NCBI RefSeq assembly: GCF_009695545.1
Contig: NZ_VUNS01000008.1
Location: 1-64,000, forward strand
Direction: 5' to 3'
Length of the DNA: 64,000 nt
Source of the DNA: Victivallis lenta
Lineage (GTDB): Bacteria > Verrucomicrobiota > Lentisphaeria > Victivallales > Victivallaceae
Both the position numbers and the translations under genes were made by a program. Positions 1-18,092 of the stretch are shown in pieces (within the stretch, counting starts at the first letter, position 1; the number at the start of each line of letters is the position of its first letter). Below the pieces are notes generated by a model. It had not been told where the DNA came from. It searched no databases and saw only the letters and a list, made by a program, of their open reading frames with translations.

Positions 1-5
1 GTTCA

Positions 6-27
6 GATCCCTGCTGGGACAGGGATC
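6..27. terminator. Hairpin after the repeat-protein gene
   Basis: Perfect 8-bp inverted repeat (GATCCCTG / CAGGGATC, 6-nt loop) about 20 bp downstream of the minus-strand stop at 48. No T-run is visible before the window ends, so it is a possible terminator only. Confidence 0.4.
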
Positions 28-47
28 ATATCGCCCCATTTACGGAA

Positions 48-716
48 CTACAGCGACAGGTCGTCATCGAACTTGAGATGATGGAACGGATGCCTGACCA
101 GATCGATCAGCTTCCGGAACTGCTCGCTGTTGCGTATCCGTGACTTCAACTTCGGTAGGATATTGAGTCTGCGCCAGTCCTCATCGCTGAATTGATCAAG
201 GCATGGACAGGCCGTCAGCAGCTCTGCGGAACTGTAAAGGATGCTCCACCACATCGGTTTCGTGAACTGTTCCCGGCTGGGACATTGAAACCACGTGCTC
301 GGATTATGCTTGACGACCCAGAACCAGTCGCCCAGAGTGAAGTCATGCGTGTCGATATCTGTGCTGAAATAACTATCGCTCGCCAGTAACCCACTCCGTA
401 TAGCCGGATGATCCGGTATCTCGCAGTAATGCAATAAGGTCGGTTGATGCTGTAACAGACGTTGCCATTTAACGGGGGTGAAATCATTCCAGTACGTACA
501 CCGCCATGCAAACGTTGGCTGCTTTTCAAGAGCGATGAGCCACTCGTCCGGGGTAAACTCGGAGAATGGACAAAACTCTTGAAGCTCCGGGTGTCGGGAG
601 ATGATGCGTGCCCACTGCTTCAGTGAAAGCGGAGCGGAAACAGATGGCTCTTCGGGAGTAAAAGCTGCACAGTTCCATTCCAGATCGAGGAATACGTTCA
701 GTTCTTGTTCGGTCAT
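48..716 (-). CDS. Tandem-repeat protein of unknown function (W-x8-P-x6-C type repeats)
   Basis: A 222-residue protein I do not recognise. It is built from about six units of roughly 25 residues with consensus F-T/S-x3-W-x3-L-x4-P-x6-C-P, running from about residue 29 to 190, with one unit (around residues 97-125) degenerate. There is no signal peptide or membrane segment, so it is probably cytoplasmic. The regular W, P and C spacing suggests a solenoid of short helical hairpins, the sort of fold used for protein binding. It lies 18 bp downstream of the replication-protein gene on the same strand and is probably co-transcribed with it, which makes it accessory cargo of a mobile element. The C-terminal 40 residues leave the repeat pattern. 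No function is claimed; the repeat description is directly visible. Confidence 0.75.
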   Translation of the reverse strand: MTEQELNVFLDLEWNCAAFTPEEPSVSAPLSLKQWARIISRHPELQEFCPFSEFTPDEWLIALEKQPTFAWRCTYWNDFTPVKWQRLLQHQPTLLHYCEIPDHPAIRSGLLASDSYFSTDIDTHDFTLGDWFWVVKHNPSTWFQCPSREQFTKPMWWSILYSSAELLTACPCLDQFSDEDWRRLNILPKLKSRIRNSEQFRKLIDLVRHPFHHLKFDDDLSL

Positions 717-734
717 GATGATTGCCTTTCAATG

Positions 735-1379
735 TTAATGTTGAATACGGGATGAGAATAGTTCCCGCTGGTGCTTGGGTGAGGAGTCCTTCTGGTTGAC
801 CTTGGCGAGGTAGCTGCAACGTCGGAAACACTGGTCGTATTTGCGTTCATATTCGGGATCATCCTTGCGGAGCATGACGCCGTTCTCCTGCGGCTGACCT
901 TGCCGGTTCCTCATACAATCGTCAATCAGTCCGTAGCTGGTTGCCCGTCCTGCGTCATCATGCTTCGGAGACAGGTTCAGCGTCTTCTCCCACAACCGTT
1001 CCGCTGTCTGAATATGGTCGTGGATGCTTTGGGTCTTGTGTCCGTCCAGCATCAAAGCAACGTGATAATGTTGATGTTTCTCTCTGGAACATTCCCGGAC
1101 TGCGATATACGCCGGGTCGTAACCTGCTCTCTTACGGTTCTTGATGAAGCTCTCCTGAAACTGGCTGAAGAGTTCGTTGTCATTCGGATGCCCGTAGCCT
1201 TGGGGGAATCGGACATCATATCGCATGAAGTAGACTTTGCTGTGACGGTTGCTCATGTCGGTCATCAGTTGATCGATCTTCTGCAATATCGATTCCTTAC
1301 AGCCAAGCTGTCTGGCTTTATCGGTCATGATGGGATGTCCCAGGTACTGGTCTTCGTAGGTGATTCTTTCGTTTCTCAT
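735..1379 (-). CDS. Inovirus Gp2 / YagK-YfjJ-type HUH replication protein
   Basis: A 214-residue protein resembling the YagK/YfjJ C-terminal or inovirus-type Gp2 family, which are rolling-circle replication initiators. Visible marks are the RHSKVYFMRYDVRFP strand near residues 45-59, the HUH-like metal site KHQHYHVALMLDG near residues 101-113, and a tyrosine in RRCSYLAKVNQ near residue 190 that could be the nicking residue. In this family such proteins nick one strand at a hairpin origin and stay covalently bound to the 5' end. A 15-bp perfect inverted repeat lies about 50 bp upstream of its start and is a natural origin candidate. A truncated relative occurs at 12.4-12.7 kb on the same strand. 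The gene looks intact and is followed by the repeat protein. Family assignment is fairly firm; activity and substrate are inferred. Confidence 0.78.
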   Translation of the reverse strand: MRNERITYEDQYLGHPIMTDKARQLGCKESILQKIDQLMTDMSNRHSKVYFMRYDVRFPQGYGHPNDNELFSQFQESFIKNRKRAGYDPAYIAVRECSREKHQHYHVALMLDGHKTQSIHDHIQTAERLWEKTLNLSPKHDDAGRATSYGLIDDCMRNRQGQPQENGVMLRKDDPEYERKYDQCFRRCSYLAKVNQKDSSPKHQRELFSSRIQH

Positions 1380-1430
1380 GCTGTTGTCTTTCTCTTGCTT
1401 ACTGTTTATTCTGTTTCTCTTTCTGTAGGG

Positions 1431-1472
1431 ATGAGCCCCCTGTGATGTCTAAAGCCCTCACAGGGGGCTCAT
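1431..1472. repeat. 15-bp perfect inverted repeat next to rep; candidate replication origin hairpin
   Basis: ATGAGCCCCCTGTGA and its exact reverse complement flank a 12-nt loop, 52 bp upstream of the HUH replication gene. A strong stem-loop beside such a gene is typical of a rolling-circle double-strand origin. It has no T-run, and it lies on the promoter side of rep, so a terminator role is less likely. An operator for rep is the main alternative. Confidence 0.5.
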
Positions 1473-1679
1473 ATAGGTACTACCAATTAACCTGTTTTTG
1501 ATAGCGTGAAACATGCCTGCTGGTGCAGAGACTTTTGAACCACGATCTCCAGCACAGCGTAGATGTTACTTTGACCGGATTATTCCCCGCATATGATATA
1601 CGACGCAATCAGGTAATTAATTCATATTTACCAGCTTCCCAACAAAACATGAAGAATCAAAGAGGTTGAGGCTACAATG

Positions 1680-4632: not shown

Positions 4633-5887
4633 ATGGCCATCCAGAAAATTAAACTCGACATCGGAACCGTCTATCAGAAAGAGGAAGGCGGCGTCTACTG
4701 CTTCCGGTCTCAGATCAACGGAGCACGTAAGGTGATCAGCCTCAAAACCCGGAACCAGAAAGAAGCTCTGAAAGAGGCCAACAAGCAAATTCCGCTGCTG
4801 AAAGCGACCTCTACGGAGATTATTGCCGCCCATGTGCAGCACGCACGCGGCCTTATCACTCCGGAAAAGAATCTGCTGCTCTCCGAGGCGTGGGCAGTCT
4901 ATGAAAAGAGCCCGGAACGTGCAACTCCCGCAACTGTTGCGGAAGCCCAATCCTACCGCGCCACATTTCAGGAATTTCTGGATTGGCTCAATGATCCGCA
5001 GAAAAATATACGTGACATTACCCCGGAAATTGGAGAACAGTACGCCGAATATATGCGTAACCAGAAAATCGCCGTTTCCACCCATAACCGTAAAATCAAG
5101 CGAATCCGCCGTGTCTTTCATGTTCTCCGGGAATATTGGAGCGGCAGCAATCCGTTTCACTCCGCAACGCAACTGCGACGGGAGCGTGAAGAGCGTGAAC
5201 AGGATGTTCGCCGCCTTTCCTTCACTCGGGAGCAGGAACAACTGTTGCAGGCTGTCCTTGACGACGACAAGTACACGGTCATGAACAAATCGGAAGTCCG
5301 GGGGGGGTTACTATCTCGGCATGTTTACCGGCCAGCGGATGAAAGGCTGTGTACTGCTGCGTTGGAACAAAATCAATTTCAACCTGAAGCGGATATGGGT
5401 GAAGCAGTTTAAGACCGGCAAGGAAGTGACGATTCCGATTGCACCGAAGCTGCTGGAGGTTCTGCAGGGTGCTTTGGCGTGGAAGGCCGGAGAAACCGAT
5501 TACGTCTGTCCCAATATTGCCGCACGTTACAACAAGACCGACGCTCGCGGCAAGAACGTCGGCAACAACCTCGTGAACATCGACATGCTCCGGGTAATCC
5601 GCTGGATCGGCTTGGAGCCGTCCGTGGCCGTTCCCGGCAGGGATAAAAAGGTGACGGTCTACGGCTTCCATTCGCTACGGCATTTGTTCGCGTCCTATTG
5701 TGCTGAGGCCGGGGTGCCACAGGCAACGGTCCTTTCCATCCTCGGAGCCGATTCCGAAATCGTCAGCAAATTCTACACGCATGTTGGAAAGGTTTCTTCA
5801 GCTTTTTGGAAATTCCGCAACGGTCATCCCCATATTCAAATGTTACAGGATCTTCCAAATCCTCCTGCGCCACATCTGTCCAGGTAA
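4633..5887 (+). pseudogene. Tyrosine recombinase (phage-type integrase), frameshifted at a G8 tract and C-terminally altered
   Basis: The first frame (4633-5412) encodes the N-terminal arm-binding and SAM-like core-binding domains. A second frame, open to 5887, encodes the catalytic domain with GQRMKGCVLLRW (first Arg), KQFKTGKEVTIPI (Lys), FHSLRHLFASYCAEAG (H-x-x-R) and the tyrosine in SKFYTHVG. The frames meet at eight consecutive G at 5300-5307; removing one G restores EVRGGYYLGMFTGQRM, a normal family sequence. After FYTHVG at about 5780 the protein stops resembling integrases and reads the antisense of the convergent RepA-like gene, so the native C-terminus has been replaced. The A of AAAGGA near 4621 gives a good ribosome binding site. 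This was probably the integrase of the element occupying the left part of the window. The G-run may be real or a sequencing error. Confidence 0.85.
5300..5307 (+). other. G8 homopolymer at the integrase frameshift
   Basis: Eight consecutive G bases; seven would restore the integrase frame. Such tracts slip in replication and are also frequent sequencing errors. Confidence 0.8.
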
Positions 5888-6461
5888 GTTTCAGAGAAAG
5901 CGCCAACCCCTGGCACTTTTCTTTCAAGCCCTTTGCTTCACCTTCATGATTCACGTGATGAACGATCAGTATGGCAATGTTCCTGCTTCGCAGTTTATTC
6001 ATCAGATCTCTGAAATTACTCGGTATTTGCGGAGTTTCCCCATGAACAAATGCGGAATACGTGTCGATAACCAGAAGATCAACATCAACTCCCGGTGTTC
6101 CGGAGTTTTGCGCATCGTCAATCATGTCAAGCAACTTCTGATGATGTGCAGGAAGCGTCCAATCGATGTCGCTGCCACTCATATCCTTCATCAGCAAATC
6201 AGGACAATTCGCTGCATCAGGCAAATAGGCATCCTGAAATTTTGTTTGATTATTGCCTATATTCCCTTTGTTCTCAAAATCCAAATACAAAACCTTATGT
6301 TTTCCTTTAGCTGCCCACCATTGCTCCGGAACTACCATTTTACTTGCAGCACTATTTCCGGCGGCAACTCGCGCTGCAATACTGTACGTCAAAGCACTCT
6401 TTCCTGTTTTTTCTTTGGCATACAGCATTGTGACCTCCCCTCGAATCAGAATGGGATGCAT
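5763..6461 (-). pseudogene. RepA-like AAA_25 ATPase, truncated at the C-terminus
   Basis: A 232-residue open segment of a RepA/DnaB-like hexameric ATPase (AAA_25). Walker A is YAKEKTGKSALT near residue 14, a Walker B-like VLYLDFEN follows near residue 57, VDLLVIDTYSAF near residue 127 is the main Walker B, and ILIVHHVNHEG near residue 163 is the sensor block. Such proteins act in plasmid or phage DNA replication. After KKLKKPF (about position 5783) it runs into antisense of the integrase active-site region, so its own C-terminus is missing. Upstream of its first ATG the frame stays open for about 20 codons and reads KKSLTAISYV, which looks coding, so the gene probably begins further upstream in a shifted frame (see 6461-6670). 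Likely non-functional remnant. Confidence 0.72.
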
Positions 6462-6670
6462 TACATAACTGATTGCCGTGAGCGATTTTTTTCCTTTTCG
6501 ATCAAACGGGATTGTTCACCGCTGGAGTTTTCTTTTTCCCACCACTCCGCCGGTTTGGAATGGATAAACTCCACCGCTTTTTGATACTGGACCTCGAAAT
6601 CGGTATCGTTCTCCAACAAAAGCAGACTTTCCGGTTTGACTTCCGGTTTCCGGTTTCGGTAACAATCCAA
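6461..6670 (-). pseudogene. Probable N-terminal part of the RepA-like gene in another frame
   Basis: A 69-codon stretch ending in a TAATG overlap with the ATG of the RepA-like segment. Its last coding block (WWEKENSSGEQ) leads to an A7 run (T7 on the plus strand at 6486-6492), past which the plausible protein continues in the other frame as KKSLTAISYVMHPIL. The simplest reading is one gene broken by a single-base change at the A-run. The alternative is a small independent gene translationally coupled through TAATG. Nothing in its own sequence identifies a function. Confidence 0.45.
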
Positions 6671-6796
6671 TTCGGAACAAAGTTTGAAACGGGAACGGTA
6701 AGTCCAATGAAAATTCCGATGAATCAGCGCGAAGTCATTAGCTAATTCGGAGTTACTTTGATCAATCGTACAACCATTCCCATTCCAGTTGGAATG

Positions 6797-7195
6797 TTAC
6801 TTCAAATTGACTTTCGTGCGGGCTGAAGAGTCAGGAGAAACTTTCAACCGCCAACGTTCCGTGGTATGCCCCAGAGAATCGATGACGAATTGGCCATGGC
6901 CTACTTCAAATTCACGAAAGCTCCATTCCAGATTGACTTTGCCATCAGAAAATGAATGTGTCAATTGCCGGGCAAAAGGTTGAGGAAAAGGAAATATCCA
7001 ACAGGAGTCCTCCCTGCGTCCACACTTCATGAACGCAGGAAAGCGCTCGCCGGTACAGTTCGCCTCAATCAGCAAAGATGCACGTGCCTCCATACAGACT
7101 GAATCACGCCGGGCAGTATCCTCAGGAATATTGTCTGTCGAAACGAACTGTGTTTCTAAAAAATCTGACAGTTTCTCAATCGTACATACTTTCAT
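6797..7195 (-). CDS. Hypothetical protein upstream of the RepA-like remnant
   Basis: About 132 residues from the ATG at 7195; the frame is open upstream to 7252, but MKVCTIEKLSDFLE looks like a natural start. I do not recognise it. It contains four cysteines, an aromatic FPFPQPFARQ stretch near residue 68 and a basic C-terminus, with no signal peptide or membrane segment. It points the same way as the RepA-like remnant 130 bp downstream and shares its lower GC content, so it is probably cargo or an accessory replication gene of the same element. The composition is protein-like rather than shadow-like, but coding status is only moderately supported. Confidence 0.4.
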   Translation of the reverse strand: MKVCTIEKLSDFLETQFVSTDNIPEDTARRDSVCMEARASLLIEANCTGERFPAFMKCGRREDSCWIFPFPQPFARQLTHSFSDGKVNLEWSFREFEVGHGQFVIDSLGHTTERWRLKVSPDSSARTKVNLK

Positions 7196-7373: not shown

Positions 7374-9602
7374 TCAGAGCGGACAGTGAAAACTGCCGTT
7401 GCCTCCCACCAGCTCCTGCCGGGAACCGTCGGGCAGATGGGCGACGCCCTTCAGATTCCGCGGCAAACGGGTCTTCAGGAAGAAGGAGCCTTTCCGCTTT
7501 TCCCACTCGACTTTGATCTCACCGGCCGGAACGCGGTAGGCGGCTTTGACGAAATCGACGCCTTCGGCGGCGAAGGGGCGCAACGTCAGTCGGGAGAAGC
7601 CCGGATGTTTTTCATCCGGCACGATTCCGGCCAGGAACTGCGTCATCCACGCCGCGACGTCGCCATACATGATATGGTTGCGCGACGCGGTCCCGATCCA
7701 GTGCTCCCAGAGGCCGCCCGCTCCCCGGTCGAGCCAGTGCATCCAGCCCGGATAGCCCGGCTGCGTCAGCACCCGGAACGCGGTATCGAAGTAGCCGTTG
7801 TTCGCCAGCGCGCGCGGCACATACTTGGCGCCGACGATGCCGAAGTCGGCGCGGCAGCGGCGAGTTTCCATATGCTTTGCGAGCTGCGCGGCGGCCTTGC
7901 GACGCTCCACTGGCGGACAGAGGCCGAATTCGAGCGCGATGGCCCCGGCGGTCGGCTCCCCTTTGGCGTAAGTGCCGTCGCCGTGATAGAAGGCGTCGTT
8001 GAAGGCGGCGGCAATTTCGGCGGCAAGAGCGGTGAGCTCGTCGGCATCCTCGCGGTTGGCGAGCAGCCGGGCGCACTTCGCCATGAGCGTCGTCAGATAG
8101 AAGTAGTAGGCGGTCGAAGTAACGCAAGCGTCCACCATCCGGCTTGGGTCGCAATGGCACCAGTCGCCGAGGCCGAATTTGACGATATGCCGCCGGTCGG
8201 CGAGTGTTCCGAGGTAGCGGATATACCGGAGCATCGGCTCGTAATTCATCTCGATGAGCGAATGGTTGCCGGTATAGAGATAAACATTCCAGGGAATCAC
8301 GATGAAGGCCGCGTCCCAGACCGGGCCGGAGCCCCAGTTGAACCCCCAGCCGCCGGTCGGAGCGATGCCGGGCAGCTGGCCGCTGGGGCGCTGACAATCC
8401 GCCATGGTCTGCATGAAAGCGGCGTAGGATTCGGCCAGGCCGTAGTTGAACAGCCCGGTTTCACAGGCGAGTTGCGCGTCGCCGGTCCAGCCGTTTTTCT
8501 CGCGGTGGGGACAGTCGATTGGAATGCCGGTGAAGTTGCCCTCGAAGCTGCGCCGGGTAAGTTGATGAAGCCGGTTCAGTTCCGGCATCGAGCACTCGAA
8601 GCCGCCGATGGAGTCGAATGCGGTACGGACCAGCCGCCCTTCGACTTCGAGAATCTCCGCCAGGCCCGATTCCACCGTCGCTTCCACGAAATTGAAGCCG
8701 TGATAGACGAAGCGCGGCTCCCACTCTTCCACGCCTTTGCCGCTCAAGGTGTAGCGGTCGGTCTGGAACTCGCCGCTCTTCACGAGTTGGTCGATATTCG
8801 ACGTGTCGATATTGTTGCCGTCGGCGTTGAGGAGTTCGGAGTAACGCAATTTTACTACCGCTCCCGCTTCCCCCCTCACCCTGATCCTTGCCCAGCCGGT
8901 GTAAGCTCCCCCCATATCGTAAATAACGCTGCCGTTGGCGGCGGGGAAGGTGCGCACCGGCTTGACGGTGCCGGTCACCTTGCAGGGCGGCATGGTCTGC
9001 AAAGTCAGGACTCCGCCGGGGCCGGGAATGAGTTCCGCGTTCTCCCAACCGGAATCGTCGAAACCGGTCGAGCTCCAGTTGGGCAGCTCTTTGCGCGCGT
9101 CGTAGAATTCACCGTTCCGGAGCGCGTTGAAGGTGATCGGCCCCTCCCGGCGCAGGCATTTCCAGGAGTCGTCGCTGGCCAGGACGGTTTTTCCATCGAT
9201 TTCCAGCTCGCAGATCAGCTTGGGGTAGTCCGCCCAGGAGACCTTGTCGAAATGCCAGCAGTCGGCGGTGGAAGGGTTGTACCAGCCATCGCCGAGAATC
9301 ACGCCGATGACGTTTTTTCCTTTCTTCAGCAAGCCGGTCAAATCGTATTCGACGTAGCGCGCCCGGCGGTCGTACTGCGTCACCACGGGATCGAGAACGC
9401 GGTCTCCCACCTTTTTGCCGTTGAGATAAAGCTCATAGTACCCGAGTCCGCAAAGATAAAGAACGGCTTCGCCTTGGGCGGAACAGTTGAATTCCTTGCG
9501 GAAATAGGGCGCGGGCAATGCCGGAGACTGCCAATTGAGATGGCAGAAACCGGCAGAAATCCAGCTGGCGTGCCACGAACGGGTTTCTTCGCAGGGGATC
9601 AT
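7374..9602 (-). CDS. Alpha-L-rhamnosidase, glycoside hydrolase family 78
   Basis: A 742-residue GH78 enzyme from the ATG at 9602. The frame is open well upstream, but that part reads antisense-like and overlaps the preceding gene. The order is rhamnosidase N-terminal sugar-binding domain (LYLNGKKVGDRVLDP near residue 52), a concanavalin-like beta domain, then the (alpha/alpha)6 barrel with the family signature DCPHREKNGWTGDAQ near residue 365, GLGDWCHCDP, TSTAYYFY and the acidic GGLWEHW block, and a C-terminal beta domain (PGFSRLTLRP). GH78 enzymes release terminal L-rhamnose by inversion. There is no signal peptide, so it should act in the cytoplasm on imported oligosaccharides. It starts 2 bp after the CE7 esterase stop and is the last gene of the captured operon. 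Its GC is much higher than that of the mobile-element DNA on its left. Confidence 0.9.
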   Translation of the reverse strand: MIPCEETRSWHASWISAGFCHLNWQSPALPAPYFRKEFNCSAQGEAVLYLCGLGYYELYLNGKKVGDRVLDPVVTQYDRRARYVEYDLTGLLKKGKNVIGVILGDGWYNPSTADCWHFDKVSWADYPKLICELEIDGKTVLASDDSWKCLRREGPITFNALRNGEFYDARKELPNWSSTGFDDSGWENAELIPGPGGVLTLQTMPPCKVTGTVKPVRTFPAANGSVIYDMGGAYTGWARIRVRGEAGAVVKLRYSELLNADGNNIDTSNIDQLVKSGEFQTDRYTLSGKGVEEWEPRFVYHGFNFVEATVESGLAEILEVEGRLVRTAFDSIGGFECSMPELNRLHQLTRRSFEGNFTGIPIDCPHREKNGWTGDAQLACETGLFNYGLAESYAAFMQTMADCQRPSGQLPGIAPTGGWGFNWGSGPVWDAAFIVIPWNVYLYTGNHSLIEMNYEPMLRYIRYLGTLADRRHIVKFGLGDWCHCDPSRMVDACVTSTAYYFYLTTLMAKCARLLANREDADELTALAAEIAAAFNDAFYHGDGTYAKGEPTAGAIALEFGLCPPVERRKAAAQLAKHMETRRCRADFGIVGAKYVPRALANNGYFDTAFRVLTQPGYPGWMHWLDRGAGGLWEHWIGTASRNHIMYGDVAAWMTQFLAGIVPDEKHPGFSRLTLRPFAAEGVDFVKAAYRVPAGEIKVEWEKRKGSFFLKTRLPRNLKGVAHLPDGSRQELVGGNGSFHCPL

Positions 9603-9604
9603 TT

Positions 9605-11317
9605 TTATTTCTGTTCCACGAGAAAGGACTGGGCTTTTTCCGGCACGAATCCGTGCGTGGAGCCCTGGACCCAGCTGATCTTCTTTTTCGCGGAACCGAG
9701 ATTGTTGTAAAGAATCGCAAGACCGGACGGCGGGCAAATATCGTCGCCGAGACCGGCGCGGGCGATATCGACCGGACATTTGACGCGTCTTGCATGGAAA
9801 ACAGCGTCGTAATAGTTGAGCGCCGGCACATAAGCGGGCCGCCACCCCTCGGGGCGCCCCCGGGCCGGCCCCGCCAAGTCGCAGCACCAGGTGATGATGG
9901 AAACCGCGTCCGTGACGTCCGGATCCAGCGCGGCCGCCCAGATGGTCTGAAGCCCGCCCTGACTTGCTCCGGAAGCGGAAAGAACTTTCCCATTCCATTG
10001 CGGCAGCTGTTTTATAAACTCAAGCAAACGCATGACGCGCAAAGCCATTCCGTTGAAATAGGCGGTTTCGGGATCGGAATTCTGCTTCGGGTCAAACGCG
10101 TAAATCGCTCCGTTCGACTTGATCTTCGCGAAGAAATCGTCGTAACAGGCTTTGTCTTTGCCGAGTTCATAGCCGTGGGCATTGACCTCGAAACGAAGCC
10201 GGTTGCCCGGTCCGTCTTTCGGAGGAACCTGAATGTTGGTTCCATAGCCGTGATAAGAGACGTAGGCGGGGAGCGATTTCTCCTTTGCGCCGACCGGAAC
10301 CGTGAGGTATCCCGTTACGGGACGCGGACCGGCGCAATCGACGGAAACAGCATAGATATCAACATTTTTACTGGAGCCGACTTGATCCATTTTGTACTTG
10401 ACGGGAATTGCGGCCAGCTTTGCCTTCTGTTTCGCCCAGAAGGCATCGAAATCCGCCGGTTCTTCGACCGCCGGTTGAAGTTTTTCCGGCTGAACGCCGG
10501 CGCCGCCGATGAAACAGATATCTTCCGGTCTTCCGGCCTGATTTTTTTTCTGGACAATCCGCCCTTTGCCGTCCGCCAGGTAGGCGACGATACGAACAAA
10601 TCCGGGAGTGTCGAGACTGCTTGTGATGACAACCGGCTTGCCGGGCGCGAACGGCTCCTTGCCGGTGGCGCGTTTTCCGTCCTCCCCGATCCGCTGCCAT
10701 TTGACGGAATAAGTTTCGGAAGGAACGGACTGCCCTCCGAAATCGGGCTCGATCAAAAACTTCATCTGTTCGCCGGGCTCATAGAGCACTTTATCGGAAG
10801 TTCCGTTGATCGTGATTTTTTGAGTGTCAAGCCCGGCAGCCTGATTGTCGGTTTCAGCGGTGGACGGCCGGATGGAGAACTCCCTGATTTCAAAAAATCC
10901 CTCCTGATTCCACGCATAGATCACACAGCTGAATGTCTTGCAGTCTTCGGGAATTGTAAAGGTTGCTTCATAACGATTCCAGTCATCGAAAACCCGGAAA
11001 AGACCTTGTTGGTCACTACAGTTTTTTCCATTGCTTTGAGGGAAAAATTCCAGATTGTTCACCGTTCCGCGAGCCAGGAATGAAACCTTGAAGGTCTCTC
11101 CCGGTTTGACGCCGGTGATGGAACGGGATTGGACCGCCAGGGCCCGGCGCTCGTTCTTCAGACAGGCCGCGGTGCATTTTTCCGCGGAAAACTCCACTTT
11201 GTAGTTGGGGTTGTCTTTGAACCATGTCGCCTGTAAATCCTGTTGGCTCATCAATTCCGCCCCAAGCGCAAGCGCGGAAAGACAGAATAACGAGAGTACG
11301 ATACTTTTTATTTTCAT
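9605..11317 (-). CDS. Secreted acetyl xylan esterase-like protein (CE7/AXE1) with N-terminal binding domains
   Basis: A 570-residue protein with signal peptide MKIKSIVLSLFCLSALALG. Residues about 20-155 look like a carbohydrate-binding jelly roll (FKVSFLARGT, WNRYEATFTIP), followed by an Ig-like strand region, and residues about 285-570 form an AXE1 alpha/beta hydrolase. Catalytic candidates are Ser in SASGASQGGLQ, Asp in GLGDDICPPS and His in GSTHGFVP. CE7 esterases remove acetyl groups from sugars. The start overlaps the stop of the upstream glycosidase (ATGA) and the stop lies 2 bp before GH78, so the three genes form one tight operon. It is a paralogue of the esterase at 23201-24913, with the same architecture. 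Signal peptide implies periplasmic or secreted action upstream of the cytoplasmic GH78. Confidence 0.88.
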   Translation of the reverse strand: MKIKSIVLSLFCLSALALGAELMSQQDLQATWFKDNPNYKVEFSAEKCTAACLKNERRALAVQSRSITGVKPGETFKVSFLARGTVNNLEFFPQSNGKNCSDQQGLFRVFDDWNRYEATFTIPEDCKTFSCVIYAWNQEGFFEIREFSIRPSTAETDNQAAGLDTQKITINGTSDKVLYEPGEQMKFLIEPDFGGQSVPSETYSVKWQRIGEDGKRATGKEPFAPGKPVVITSSLDTPGFVRIVAYLADGKGRIVQKKNQAGRPEDICFIGGAGVQPEKLQPAVEEPADFDAFWAKQKAKLAAIPVKYKMDQVGSSKNVDIYAVSVDCAGPRPVTGYLTVPVGAKEKSLPAYVSYHGYGTNIQVPPKDGPGNRLRFEVNAHGYELGKDKACYDDFFAKIKSNGAIYAFDPKQNSDPETAYFNGMALRVMRLLEFIKQLPQWNGKVLSASGASQGGLQTIWAAALDPDVTDAVSIITWCCDLAGPARGRPEGWRPAYVPALNYYDAVFHARRVKCPVDIARAGLGDDICPPSGLAILYNNLGSAKKKISWVQGSTHGFVPEKAQSFLVEQK

Positions 11318-12435
11318 TTTTTCACCTTGATTGTGATATCGTTTGCACCTTTGATTTCAGAGTCGATCATTTCCGATTCTTTTCCATTGACCAGCAACTG
11401 ATTGCTTGTGTGCCGCCTGACCGTTATATTCAGGCGGCTTTGGCGGTAGGGAAAATTCGATAATGTGATTTCATCGGTTCCTTCCGGCAGGTATGGCGAG
11501 AAAGCCAAACCGGCAGGCGAATATCGGACTCCCGGAAAAACGTTCAAAACCATATTGATGAATCCGCCGGCACACCAGGTCTGGCGGCGGCATGACAGCC
11601 ATTCGACTATTCCCCTTGCCTCGTCTTCCTGAATTCCGCCATAAGGCAATCCGGTTTCCGGATGATAGATTTCAGAAAAGATATAATCGCGGGCGGCTTT
11701 TTCCGCCAGCTTCATCATTTCGTCAAAAGCCATTTCGCGGTATCCCGCCCGGGCAAGAGCTTCGCACCAGGCGACGCAGACCTGGGGCCATATCACCCCG
11801 GAATGCCTGGCATAAACACCTTTCGTGCCGCCATACCTTTCATATTGCGGCCAGACGCACGGCAGCCCTTGAGGAGTGATGTGGATATTGCGGATCATTT
11901 TTTCTTCGCGATTCCCGCCGGCGATCCCGAACAAGAGCGCGAAAGCATGCCCGAGGCCCTCCTGCCGGGCTGGATTCGGATCATCCGCATCGAGCAGATA
12001 GCGGTAAGTTCCCGCCGCGTCATTCCAGAACTTTTCATTGATATGATTCCGCAGCCCGGAACTTTCTTTTGCCCAGCGTTCCGGCAATCCGGATTCTTTG
12101 CGCATATGATCCGCAACTTCATACGCCGCGAGATACAGGCAATTGGTGGAGAGCGCCTTGCAGGGAAGCCCAATCCCCTTGCCGGCAAGGAATTCCGGCC
12201 GGGGCTGATCGTAAACGCAATCGATAATGCCGCTTTTACGCTGACGGGATACCAATTTGTCGGGATATGCCGCAATTCCGTCCTGAAAACATGCTCCGCC
12301 GCGAAACAGGCCGTCTTTTTCGTCAAACTCGCCGCGAATCAATTGATCCAGGGTATTTTCAATTGCTTCAAGCGCCGTCTTGATAAATTCCCGTCTTCCG
12401 CTCCATGCGAACAATGTATTGCGGATCGAGTTCAC
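11314..12435 (-). pseudogene. MGH1-like / GH63-like glycosidase, N-terminally truncated and fused to rep debris
   Basis: The open frame encodes 373 residues matching only the C-terminal half of an (alpha/alpha)6-barrel glycosidase: FRGGACFQDGIAAYP near residue 45, WNDAAGTYRYLLDADDPN near residue 137, the glycine-rich YARHSGVIWPQ near residue 210 and GLPYGGIQEDEARG near residue 265. Family members are usually about twice as long. The apparent start is a GTG inside the replication-gene fragment at 12368-12688, and similarity to glycosidases begins only around FAWSGRREF (about 12410). The catalytic acid half is therefore probably missing. The stop overlaps the CE7 start, so this was the first retained gene of the operon. 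Residual transcription could come from rep-side sequence. Likely inactive. Confidence 0.75.
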
Positions 12436-12688
12436 GACTGACCAGCAGCCTCCGATATTGATCTAAGAAGCGAGAGAAAAGTTCCTTCTCGTTGTACCAA
12501 AGGATACGGTCCGGAAAGCGCAAATCCATACGGAAGAACAGGACTTGGGAATGCCGTTCCAGCATGCGGCTCAGCAATTCACGGTTACGATCAAGATAAT
12601 TGACGTAATATGGATACGGTTCCCCCATCCTCGGTGTTAGCACTGGTAAATCCTGGTATACGGCAAGCGGTTTGATTGGATTCCTCAT
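12368..12688 (-). pseudogene. Truncated Gp2/YagK-type replication protein
   Basis: A 106-codon fragment beginning at ATG 12688 with a good AAAGG ribosome binding site. It resembles the N-terminal half of the replication protein at 735-1379: both start MRN, share a RHSQVLFFRMDLRFP / RHSKVYFMRYDVRFP strand, an NEKELFSRF / DNELFSQF block and a LDPQYIV / YDPAYIA block. Just before the HUH motif would appear it switches, around 12405-12420, into the glycosidase gene out of frame and ends 13 codons later. No catalytic residues remain, so it cannot nick DNA. It marks the right-hand breakpoint of the captured operon. The two rep sequences are clearly diverged, so this is not a simple duplication of the left copy. 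Confidence 0.7.
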
Positions 12689-12703
12689 AGTATAACCTTT
12701 CAA

Positions 12704-14828: not shown

Positions 14829-15095
14829 ATGGCAACGACAAAACTGACATTGAGCGTTGACCCGGAAGTGATCGCCAAGGCCCGCCGAATCTCGAAGCTG
14901 AGAAAGACGAGCGTGTCCGCGATGTTTTCGCGTTATATCGCCACCTTGGAGGAGAGCAAACAGAGGGAAACTCCCTTGCCGCCGATGACCAAGCGCGCTC
15001 TGGCGCTCGCGGCCGGAACCGCCCCGGTGCCGGAGAATTGGGATTATCGCGATGAGCTGAAAGATATTCTTGACGAAAGGTACGGCCTTAAATGA
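14829..15095 (+). CDS. DUF6364-type antitoxin
   Basis: An 88-residue protein beginning TTKLTLSVDPEVIAKARRISK, the typical short beta strand and helix of ribbon-helix-helix DNA-binding antitoxins of the DUF6364 type, with a C-terminal acidic tail NWDYRDELKDILDE that would wrap the toxin. It precedes a PIN-domain gene with a 4-nt ATGA overlap, the usual antitoxin-toxin order. The inverted repeat at 14788-14815 directly upstream is the likely autoregulatory operator. It should neutralise the PIN nuclease and repress the operon. The pair sits beside mobile-element remnants, where such modules commonly stabilise DNA. Confidence 0.8.
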   Translation: MATTKLTLSVDPEVIAKARRISKLRKTSVSAMFSRYIATLEESKQRETPLPPMTKRALALAAGTAPVPENWDYRDELKDILDERYGLK

Positions 15096-15505
15096 AGAAG
15101 GTATTCATCGATACCAGCATTCTGCTGGATGTCTTTTTGAATCGGGAATCTTTCGTGGAACCGGCGGCGGCAGTCTTTGCCGGCTGCGAGTCCGGCAAAG
15201 TCAAAGGCATCGTTTCGGCGATTTCTCTGAATAACTTGCATTATATTCTTTCCCGGCATATCGGGAAGAACAAGGCGTTGGAGGCGGTGCGGATTGTGCT
15301 GAACATTTTTACTGTTGCTGCTCTGGACGAAAAAATATTGCGCCTTGCCGCCGATCTGTCGCACAAGGGTTTCGAGGATGCGATCCAGTTCCATTCCGCA
15401 GTCGCGGCCGGAGCAACCTGCATCATTACGCGCGATGCCAGCCATTTCCCGAAGGATGAAGTTCCGGTTCTGTCACCCGCCGATTATCTGGAAATGAATT
15501 TGTAA
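15092..15505 (+). CDS. PIN-domain ribonuclease toxin (VapC-like)
   Basis: A 137-residue PIN domain protein. It starts KKVFIDTSILLDVFLNRE, giving the first conserved Asp near residue 7 and Asp near residue 13; FEDAIQFHSAVAAG near residue 95 supplies the middle acidic residues and CIITRDASHF near residue 112 the last Asp. Those residues bind metal for RNA cleavage in the family. It overlaps the antitoxin gene by 4 nt. Length is standard for VapC-type toxins and all acidic positions are present, so it looks active. No terminator is obvious directly downstream. Confidence 0.85.
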   Translation: MKKVFIDTSILLDVFLNRESFVEPAAAVFAGCESGKVKGIVSAISLNNLHYILSRHIGKNKALEAVRIVLNIFTVAALDEKILRLAADLSHKGFEDAIQFHSAVAAGATCIITRDASHFPKDEVPVLSPADYLEMNL

Positions 15506-16211: not shown

Positions 16212-18092
16212 TCAAAGGCCACGGTCTGCTGCCGCATCGGTCTGTTCTCCGCAGCCGGAACAGCCGGGCCCGGCGTATACGATCATCCGGCAGCGCCGTC
16301 CGGGATCGGTCAGGCTGTTGTGCCGGCACTCGATGGCGTCACTGCCGAGAAACAGAATCGCACTGTATGACTCCCGCAGCCGGGAAATCTCCTCCCCGGA
16401 CAACTCCTTTCCGGAAAAATCGAGCCGGCTGCTGACATCCAGCCGGCCGATGGCGGCGGGATTGGAAAAGGGATGGAAGATCCGGTTGTTCGAAACCCGG
16501 GGATGCCGACTGTTGAAAACGGCGATTCCCGAACCAGCGTTGCAGTTGCGGATTTCATTGCCTGAAATGGTGATATTCTCCGCATTGACGACCGGCGTGA
16601 TCCGGTCTGCGGGCGGCGCACAGCAGCCGCACATGACCAGAATCGCCGCAAGGGCGGTATGCCCGAAAGCGCAGTCCGTCAGGGTATTGCCCTGAATCAC
16701 GATATTCCGGGGCATCGGACCCTCCAGCCAGAAGAACTCCGGCTTCAGGATGATTCCGTTGAGGGCCGTGCGTGAAATCCGGTTGTTCTCGATCCGGCAG
16801 TCGGCGGCTTTCAGCAGGATTCCGCGCACATGGCAGTCGTGAAGATCGTTATCGCGCAGCACTGCGCCGGAGCCGCAGCTGTCATAGTCGCACGCGAAGT
16901 CGCCCGGTTCCGTATCCAGCGGCCGGTCGAACCGGATCCGGCACAAAGAGCCGCCGGGGAAATTCTGAAGGACCATCCCGAATCTCCGGCCGTAAAGTTC
17001 CCTGACCCGCCGCAATCCCTCCTGTTCGCTCCCGGCGATCTCCAGCCGGGAGGCGACCGCGGCCCGGAATTTCTCCCGTCCATAGGGGGCGGAGAAAAAA
17101 GTCAGTTCCGTACCGGGCCGCAGACCGGTGCCGAAAGGGGTGACGATCAGCAGTTCATCTTCGGCGAGCTGTTCCACCGCCACATGAAAATAACCGTGGA
17201 TGTTCACGAGATCATCCATCGCCCAGGAAAATTCGCACTGTTCGATCAGCGGTCCGCGCCGCTGGTTCATCGAGTGGAAACAGTCGGCGGCGGAGGCCAG
17301 CAGCCGGTCCGTCCCCGGACGGCGGATCAGCCGGCAGCGGCGGTAAGTGTTGCCTCCCCCGCCGTGGCCGCTCTCGTAAAACGCGAAGCAGGGCGAAGCG
17401 TAGACCGTGACCGCCTCGAAGCACATGGTTTCGCAGCCGTCGACCAGCAGCATGCCGCCTTCATGGCGCATTCCCAGCACGATACGGTCGCCGGGACGGG
17501 GCACCCGCAGCTGGTAGCGCCAGTGGCGGGCGACCGGTTCCGATACCGGAACCAGCAGATTGCCCGCCGCGTCGAAAGAGAGTGTTTCCCGAGGAACAAT
17601 GAAGTCGAGATTGTCGATCTCATGCTCGCCCGCCGCATCGAGAAACATCAGCCGGAAGTGATCCTGATCCCGCTGTCCGTGAAAACGGCGGACAAAGTAC
17701 TCCTCCAGCCGGATCACCAGCCGAACATCTCCGACGTCAAGCAGAGTTCCCTGCAGAAACGGCAACTCCTCCATATCGAGGGCGAGGCCGGAAAGCCGGA
17801 CGTTGCGGCAGTTGCGGAAATGTACGCCCGCCGTGACTTCGGAGGAAAACCAGAAGGTCGCGCCCTCCGCTTCCAGAGAGATGTCCCGCAGGTTTTCCAG
17901 CAATATTCCCTCCCGGCCCGGAAAACGGTAGTCGCCGGGCGGAATGCGGACCGTGCCGGAGCTGTTCCGCCCGGCGCGCCTGATCCGTTCCAGCACTTCG
18001 CGCCCGGCGGCGGCCCGGCGCTCTTTTTCGTCTTCATCCCACGCGGAAACCTCCGCAGGAAACAATTGTGATATGGTGATCGTTTTCTTCAT
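16212..18092 (-). CDS. Right-handed parallel beta-helix protein, GH110-like
   Basis: A 626-residue protein without a signal peptide. It begins ISQLFPAEVSAWDEDEKERRAA, has TVRIPPGDYRF near residue 47, and a long run of beta-helix coils such as RNCRNVRLSGLALDMEELPF, VIQGNTLTDCAFGHTALAAI and ISGNEIRNCNAGSGIAVFNSRHPRVSNNRIF. The block EFSWAMDDLVNIHGYFHVAVE near residues 285-305 resembles the DD-x-x-N-x-H-G region of GH110 alpha-1,3-galactosidases, which supports a galactosidase-like role. Other beta-helix families (lyases, epimerases) remain possible. It is the last gene of the minus-strand operon driven from around 24.9 kb, about 80 bp after a pseudopilin gene. Lack of an export signal suggests a cytoplasmic role, or a start further upstream. 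Confidence 0.7.
   Translation of the reverse strand: MKKTITISQLFPAEVSAWDEDEKERRAAAGREVLERIRRAGRNSSGTVRIPPGDYRFPGREGILLENLRDISLEAEGATFWFSSEVTAGVHFRNCRNVRLSGLALDMEELPFLQGTLLDVGDVRLVIRLEEYFVRRFHGQRDQDHFRLMFLDAAGEHEIDNLDFIVPRETLSFDAAGNLLVPVSEPVARHWRYQLRVPRPGDRIVLGMRHEGGMLLVDGCETMCFEAVTVYASPCFAFYESGHGGGGNTYRRCRLIRRPGTDRLLASAADCFHSMNQRRGPLIEQCEFSWAMDDLVNIHGYFHVAVEQLAEDELLIVTPFGTGLRPGTELTFFSAPYGREKFRAAVASRLEIAGSEQEGLRRVRELYGRRFGMVLQNFPGGSLCRIRFDRPLDTEPGDFACDYDSCGSGAVLRDNDLHDCHVRGILLKAADCRIENNRISRTALNGIILKPEFFWLEGPMPRNIVIQGNTLTDCAFGHTALAAILVMCGCCAPPADRITPVVNAENITISGNEIRNCNAGSGIAVFNSRHPRVSNNRIFHPFSNPAAIGRLDVSSRLDFSGKELSGEEISRLRESYSAILFLGSDAIECRHNSLTDPGRRCRMIVYAGPGCSGCGEQTDAAADRGL

Follow-up and report, generated by a model that had tools for sequence, protein, structure and literature searches.

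Layout of the locus

The window, that is the whole stretch of DNA analysed here, comprises the first 64 kb of contig C8 (188,756 bases) in a Victivallis genome of 5.5 Mb and 78 contigs. Three minus-strand open reading frames for sugar degradation lie end to end in it: a glycosidase (12435-11314), an esterase (11317-9605) and a rhamnosidase (9602-7374). The first gene of this operon is a six-hairpin, MGH1-like glycosidase, recognized by PF22422 and by its relatives, of which 11314-12396 is retained and about 115 N-terminal residues are missing. The two genes downstream retain their domains. The CE7-type esterase (9605-11317, minus strand) is an intact reading frame with an AXE1 domain (PF05448, E 1.6e-26, 93.3 bits against a cut-off of 21), and the GH78 alpha-L-rhamnosidase (7374-9602, minus strand) carries all four of its Pfam domains (PF08531, PF05592, PF17389, PF17390), with the N-terminal, concanavalin-like, six-hairpin and C-terminal domains each above the Pfam cut-off. 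The ATG of the esterase overlaps the stop codon of the glycosidase, with an AGGTGA stretch shortly upstream of the esterase start. In scans for promoters and terminators there was no excess over expectation (promoters: 4 found, 3.5 expected). CE7-type esterases are expanded in this genome, where the window esterase has 12 matches, some of which cover no more than its N-terminal part.

Upstream of the operon, the 5' part of a YagK/Gp2-type rep gene (12397-12688, minus strand) runs directly into the glycosidase. It is followed to the right by an AAA_14/DUF4143 gene and a DUF6364/PIN pair, neither of which is diagnostic of a mobile element; the pair, at 14829-15505, has a toxin-antitoxin-like arrangement.

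On the left side, a gutted AAA_25 helicase gene (5814-7195, minus strand) begins 178 bases past the rhamnosidase stop. Its N-terminal part (7183-6836) and AAA part (6524-5814) match residues 3-125 and 488-741 of intact proteins of 808-811 aa encoded on contigs C26, C37 and C42 of the same genome, so that the middle is lost and the frame is changed. Next to it lies a tyrosine integrase gene (4633-5791, plus strand) with a frameshift at 5302-5308 and without approximately its last 50 residues, which is 51% and 70-73% identical to the intact 432-aa integrases of L105 and L107. The two genes abut at 5791-5814, each without its 3' end, at a second join within this debris. No relatives of the AAA_25 fragment were confirmed in viral contigs. 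Further left, at 1958-2455, a DUF3990 protein is encoded (E 1e-45), with a relative at L157 521-1036. The original prediction had placed mobile-element debris on both sides of the operon; this holds for the left side, with its frameshifted integrase and reduced helicase gene, but on the right the debris is mainly the rep fragment itself.

A truncated glycosidase joined to a truncated rep gene

The glycosidase matches PF22422 with E 1.8e-12 and 47.9 bits, well above the gathering score of 27, but only over profile positions 172-350 of 356, and it is thus a fragment of a family member and not a complete barrel. With the fragment as query, close relatives were found in three other genomes of the 78 family genomes searched (G072, G016 and G071). 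The relatives P0005 (472 aa), P0006 (497 aa) and P0007 are 44-49% identical to the fragment, and each has about 115 further N-terminal residues. Measured against full-length relatives the loss amounts to about 115 of 472 residues, or roughly 24%, so the gene is truncated as claimed, but by a quarter and not by half. The relative in G071 (L021 8230-9643) is itself frame-broken near its end.

To obtain a wider set of relatives, 387 genomes of the phylum were searched and GTDB contigs were screened by alignment, the latter giving 35 loci; a first scan of GTDB contigs with P0001 had given no match. No homologue was found that starts at the same GTG and keeps the full family length. When counted from the preceding stop codon, at least 104 residues lie upstream of the cut in 42 of the 43 relative reading frames. 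In the sole exception, L113 1498-2647 in G259, the frame changes between residues 11-69 and the part that starts at residue 148; with about 80 residues of the N-terminal part lost as well, it is broken too. Since the 35 GTDB loci were picked by patterns inside the missing part, they could only be full-length and provide no independent test. The unbiased relatives are those found with the fragment itself, and of the nine reading frames measured in this way eight extend past the cut. This fragment-based set left out L110 and L114 (duplicates of L139 and L138) and L118-L125, and L072 gave no row.

The missing part holds 19 columns conserved at 90% or more among the relatives, including a W-T-R-D run. 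The retained part keeps 42 of 43 conserved columns, which equals the median of intact relatives, and reads through about 360 codons without a stop. As judged from these positions the retained part is without visible decay, which fits a recent event, and continued selection on the fragment as well. The fragment is nevertheless predicted to be inactive, because 19 highly conserved columns of the barrel fold are gone. A search of the genome with a full-length relative as query returned the window copy as the sole match (query 90-443 covered), and the lost N-terminal part was found nowhere else in the genome. Solved structures gave only weak matches.

The rep side of the junction was mapped against the rep protein of L107 (G003), its closest intact relative, with which the fragment shares 39% identity over 100 aa (E 6e-19). 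The similarity stops at nucleotide 12386 (residue 101); in the L107 protein an HUH-type PHLHVEM stretch follows within three residues. The HUH motif is absent from the window fragment, confirming that a YagK/Gp2-type rep gene is cut just before it; beyond the break the rep reading frame (P0002, 12688-12368) continues to 12368 by chance. P0002 on its own gave no relevant match in Pfam, PHROGs or NCBIfam and did not match PF11726, a profile that is matched by its full-length relatives, the L107 rep and P0008, a second rep in the window (735-1379). No C-terminal remnant of the cut gene was detected beyond the operon, or elsewhere in the genome with an intact-type rep as query, and what is left would be unable to act as a Rep. 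Matches to the fragment occur in 17 of 78 family genomes, this one included, and its relatives within this genome are only 32-36% identical. None were found in phages and plasmids, and no relatives of the neighbouring P0008 were confirmed in viral contigs.

Both reading frames are on the minus strand and in different frames, as had been predicted for an out-of-frame fusion. Residue-by-residue scores against the L107 rep and against P0005, P0006 and P0007 place the junction zone at 12386-12403. The best-scoring breakpoint, with both frames scored against relatives, is 12388-12396, somewhat to the left of the predicted 12405-12420. Rep similarity ends at 12386 and glycosidase similarity begins at about 12399-12390 in the other frame; thus some 15 nucleotides can be claimed by either gene and the breakpoint cannot be assigned to a single base. 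The first 13 codons or so of the 11314-12435 reading frame come from the rep gene, and the GTG at 12435, being part of this rep-derived sequence, is consequently no family start of the glycosidase. The fusion is not a conserved arrangement: it occurs in one of the 78 family genomes, namely this one, and G016, G071 and G072 contain no rep match at all. The junction 38-mer had no match in viral contigs, and direct or inverted repeats flanking the operon were limited to short, chance-like pairs.

Genomic context and origin of the operon

Shared synteny with related genomes starts at a beta-helix gene on the right flank (16212-18092, minus strand), which has 75-85% protein identity to its counterparts in G073, G074 and G075. 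The DNA similarity to these three genomes ends at 16255 or 16396, at the 3' end of the beta-helix gene. Left of about 16.2 kb everything differs and the operon is absent; G073 and G074 have a common flank there, and G075 has another. One esterase match in G075 (35%) is on the other side of the beta-helix gene. The loss of synteny together with the absence of the operon in the relatives places the operon within a lineage-specific segment that spans at least 16 kb and extends past the contig start on its left, so that the island is visible in part only. No tRNA that could serve as integration site was found in the 64-kb window. Next to the syntenic flank, G073 carries what we take, from its sequence, to be a threonine-synthase-like gene (L166 11335-12864); it had no match in the genome of the window, and the empty answer of that search carries no weight.

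Base composition changes along the segment. The GC content is 44-53% in the debris genes, 52.6% in the glycosidase fragment, 54.6% in the esterase, 61.9% in the rhamnosidase and 62.1% in the right-flank host gene. At third codon positions it is 43-65% in the element genes to the left and in the rep fragment, 57% in the glycosidase, 63% in the esterase, 78.7% in the rhamnosidase and 74.8% in the right-flank host gene. The GC shift of the original prediction is thus present between debris and host DNA, but the operon is not low-GC foreign DNA, as its GC climbs towards the host value.

Several other element copies were seen in the course of the analysis. Contigs C8 and C34 have a common starting point in an element segment of 1.6 kb (window 1-1597 and L022 1-1597, 90% identical) that carries a YagK-type rep and a 222-aa protein, and the 222-aa gene recurs on C9, C11 and C50, there next to a rep that is more distant. 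At L105 4508-13564 lies an element copy that appears to be intact; it encodes an integrase, a YagK-type rep, a 236-aa protein and a PD-(D/E)XK nuclease, together with a 460-aa protein that matches no Pfam family and is presumably DnaN-like. L155, L156 and L157 (on C37, C26 and C42) represent a family of their own, made up of two-gene units that closely resemble one another, each consisting of a 408-413 aa protein and the 808-811 aa AAA_25 protein.

The operon could in principle be true cargo of a YagK-type element, picked up elsewhere, brought here and later cut. Element genes on the same strand do enclose it (the rep 5' part on one side, the AAA_25 gene on the other), and it is absent at this place in the three syntenic relatives; this absence fits either capture or local rearrangement. 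On the other hand, ten stretches with element DNA, drawn from this genome and G003, lack the operon and hold no relatives of its three proteins, except for one distant GH78-like match in L156 that lies outside the element genes. The esterase and the rhamnosidase have paralogues in the host genome (60% at C7:145320 and 68% at C12:79211, respectively), and the rhamnosidase is host-like in its third codon positions. Neither paralogue neighbourhood contains the other operon genes. An intact glycosidase-CE7-GH78 operon was sought in related genomes, as the original prediction had suggested, but was not found among the relatives searched, nor was a sister strain with an unbroken glycosidase. Genes for CE7 or GH78 relatives adjoin the glycosidase in none of the 35 GTDB loci, and in wider neighbourhoods CE7-type genes occur near it only in L138 (G113). 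We therefore regard cargo as possible but unproven, and on balance as unlikely. Of the predicted captured operon cut by rearrangement, the cut at element DNA stands, but the capture lacks an intact operon and an element copy carrying it.

A probable rearrangement scar and its likeness to known systems

We consider it highly probable that the junction is a scar at which the first gene of the operon and the rep gene of an element were both truncated by an illegitimate join. The Victivallis-type three-gene operon resides in 16 kb or more of DNA that holds mobile-element debris, and a deletion or non-homologous recombination would have brought approximately the first 300 bases of a rep gene of the YagK/Gp2 type up against codon 116 or so of the glycosidase. 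Such a join, probably of the deletion type, would have removed the N-terminal quarter of the glycosidase and the HUH catalytic part of the rep, and the original promoter of the operon was presumably lost with the 5' end. Read-through from the rep side may still allow the esterase and rhamnosidase to be produced, each from its own ribosome site.

Could the fragment instead be a working shortened enzyme, or one domain of it, made either from the GTG at 12435 or off a rep transcript? Its long open frame and nearly complete set of conserved positions are what such an enzyme would show, and the copy in G259 is also shortened, though its frame is broken. However, the GTG belongs to rep-derived sequence, the 19 conserved columns of the missing part are gone and there is no promoter excess, which makes a functional short form very unlikely. 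We give slightly less weight still to an assembly chimera, in which the assembler linked two unrelated pieces. In its favour, the genome is split into 78 contigs and element copies recur in it, and the analysis covered the assembly only. Against this, a contig of 188,756 bases runs through the junction, and with no second glycosidase copy and only distant rep relatives in the genome there is no repeat to mislead an assembler; the breaks in the neighbouring integrase and AAA_25 genes moreover show real decay. That the YagK-type rep family, with several copies here, uses one-ended rolling-circle action to mobilise host operons next to it, the junction being a capture scar, is scarcely credible.

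The preferred reading, truncation of both genes by an illegitimate join, has a practical side, since automatic annotation would take 11314-12435 for a glycosidase with its start at the GTG and would count the operon as working. The locus is a clean example of element traffic eroding Victivallis sugar-degradation operons and raises no new question. Going by titles and the opening lines of abstracts, literature searches gave nothing on this locus.

In comparison with known systems, the truncation is real but is an ordinary gene-truncation scar of genome rearrangement. It resembles truncations at the borders of integrated elements or genomic islands: the integrase is broken, the helicase gene is gutted, the GC content shifts and synteny is lost on one side. 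Nothing distinctive sets it apart; the left edge of the island is beyond the contig. The rep fragment can be aligned with the N-terminal region of members, such as L107, of the YagK/YfjJ (PF11726) and REP_ORF2-G2P (PF23343) HUH Reps of inovirus-like elements, but unlike these it is cut before the HUH motif. Compared with MGH1-like six-hairpin glycosidases (PF22422), the kept part corresponds to the C-terminal half of the profile with nearly all conserved residues present, whereas the first 115 or so residues, which the full-length relatives have, are missing from the window copy.
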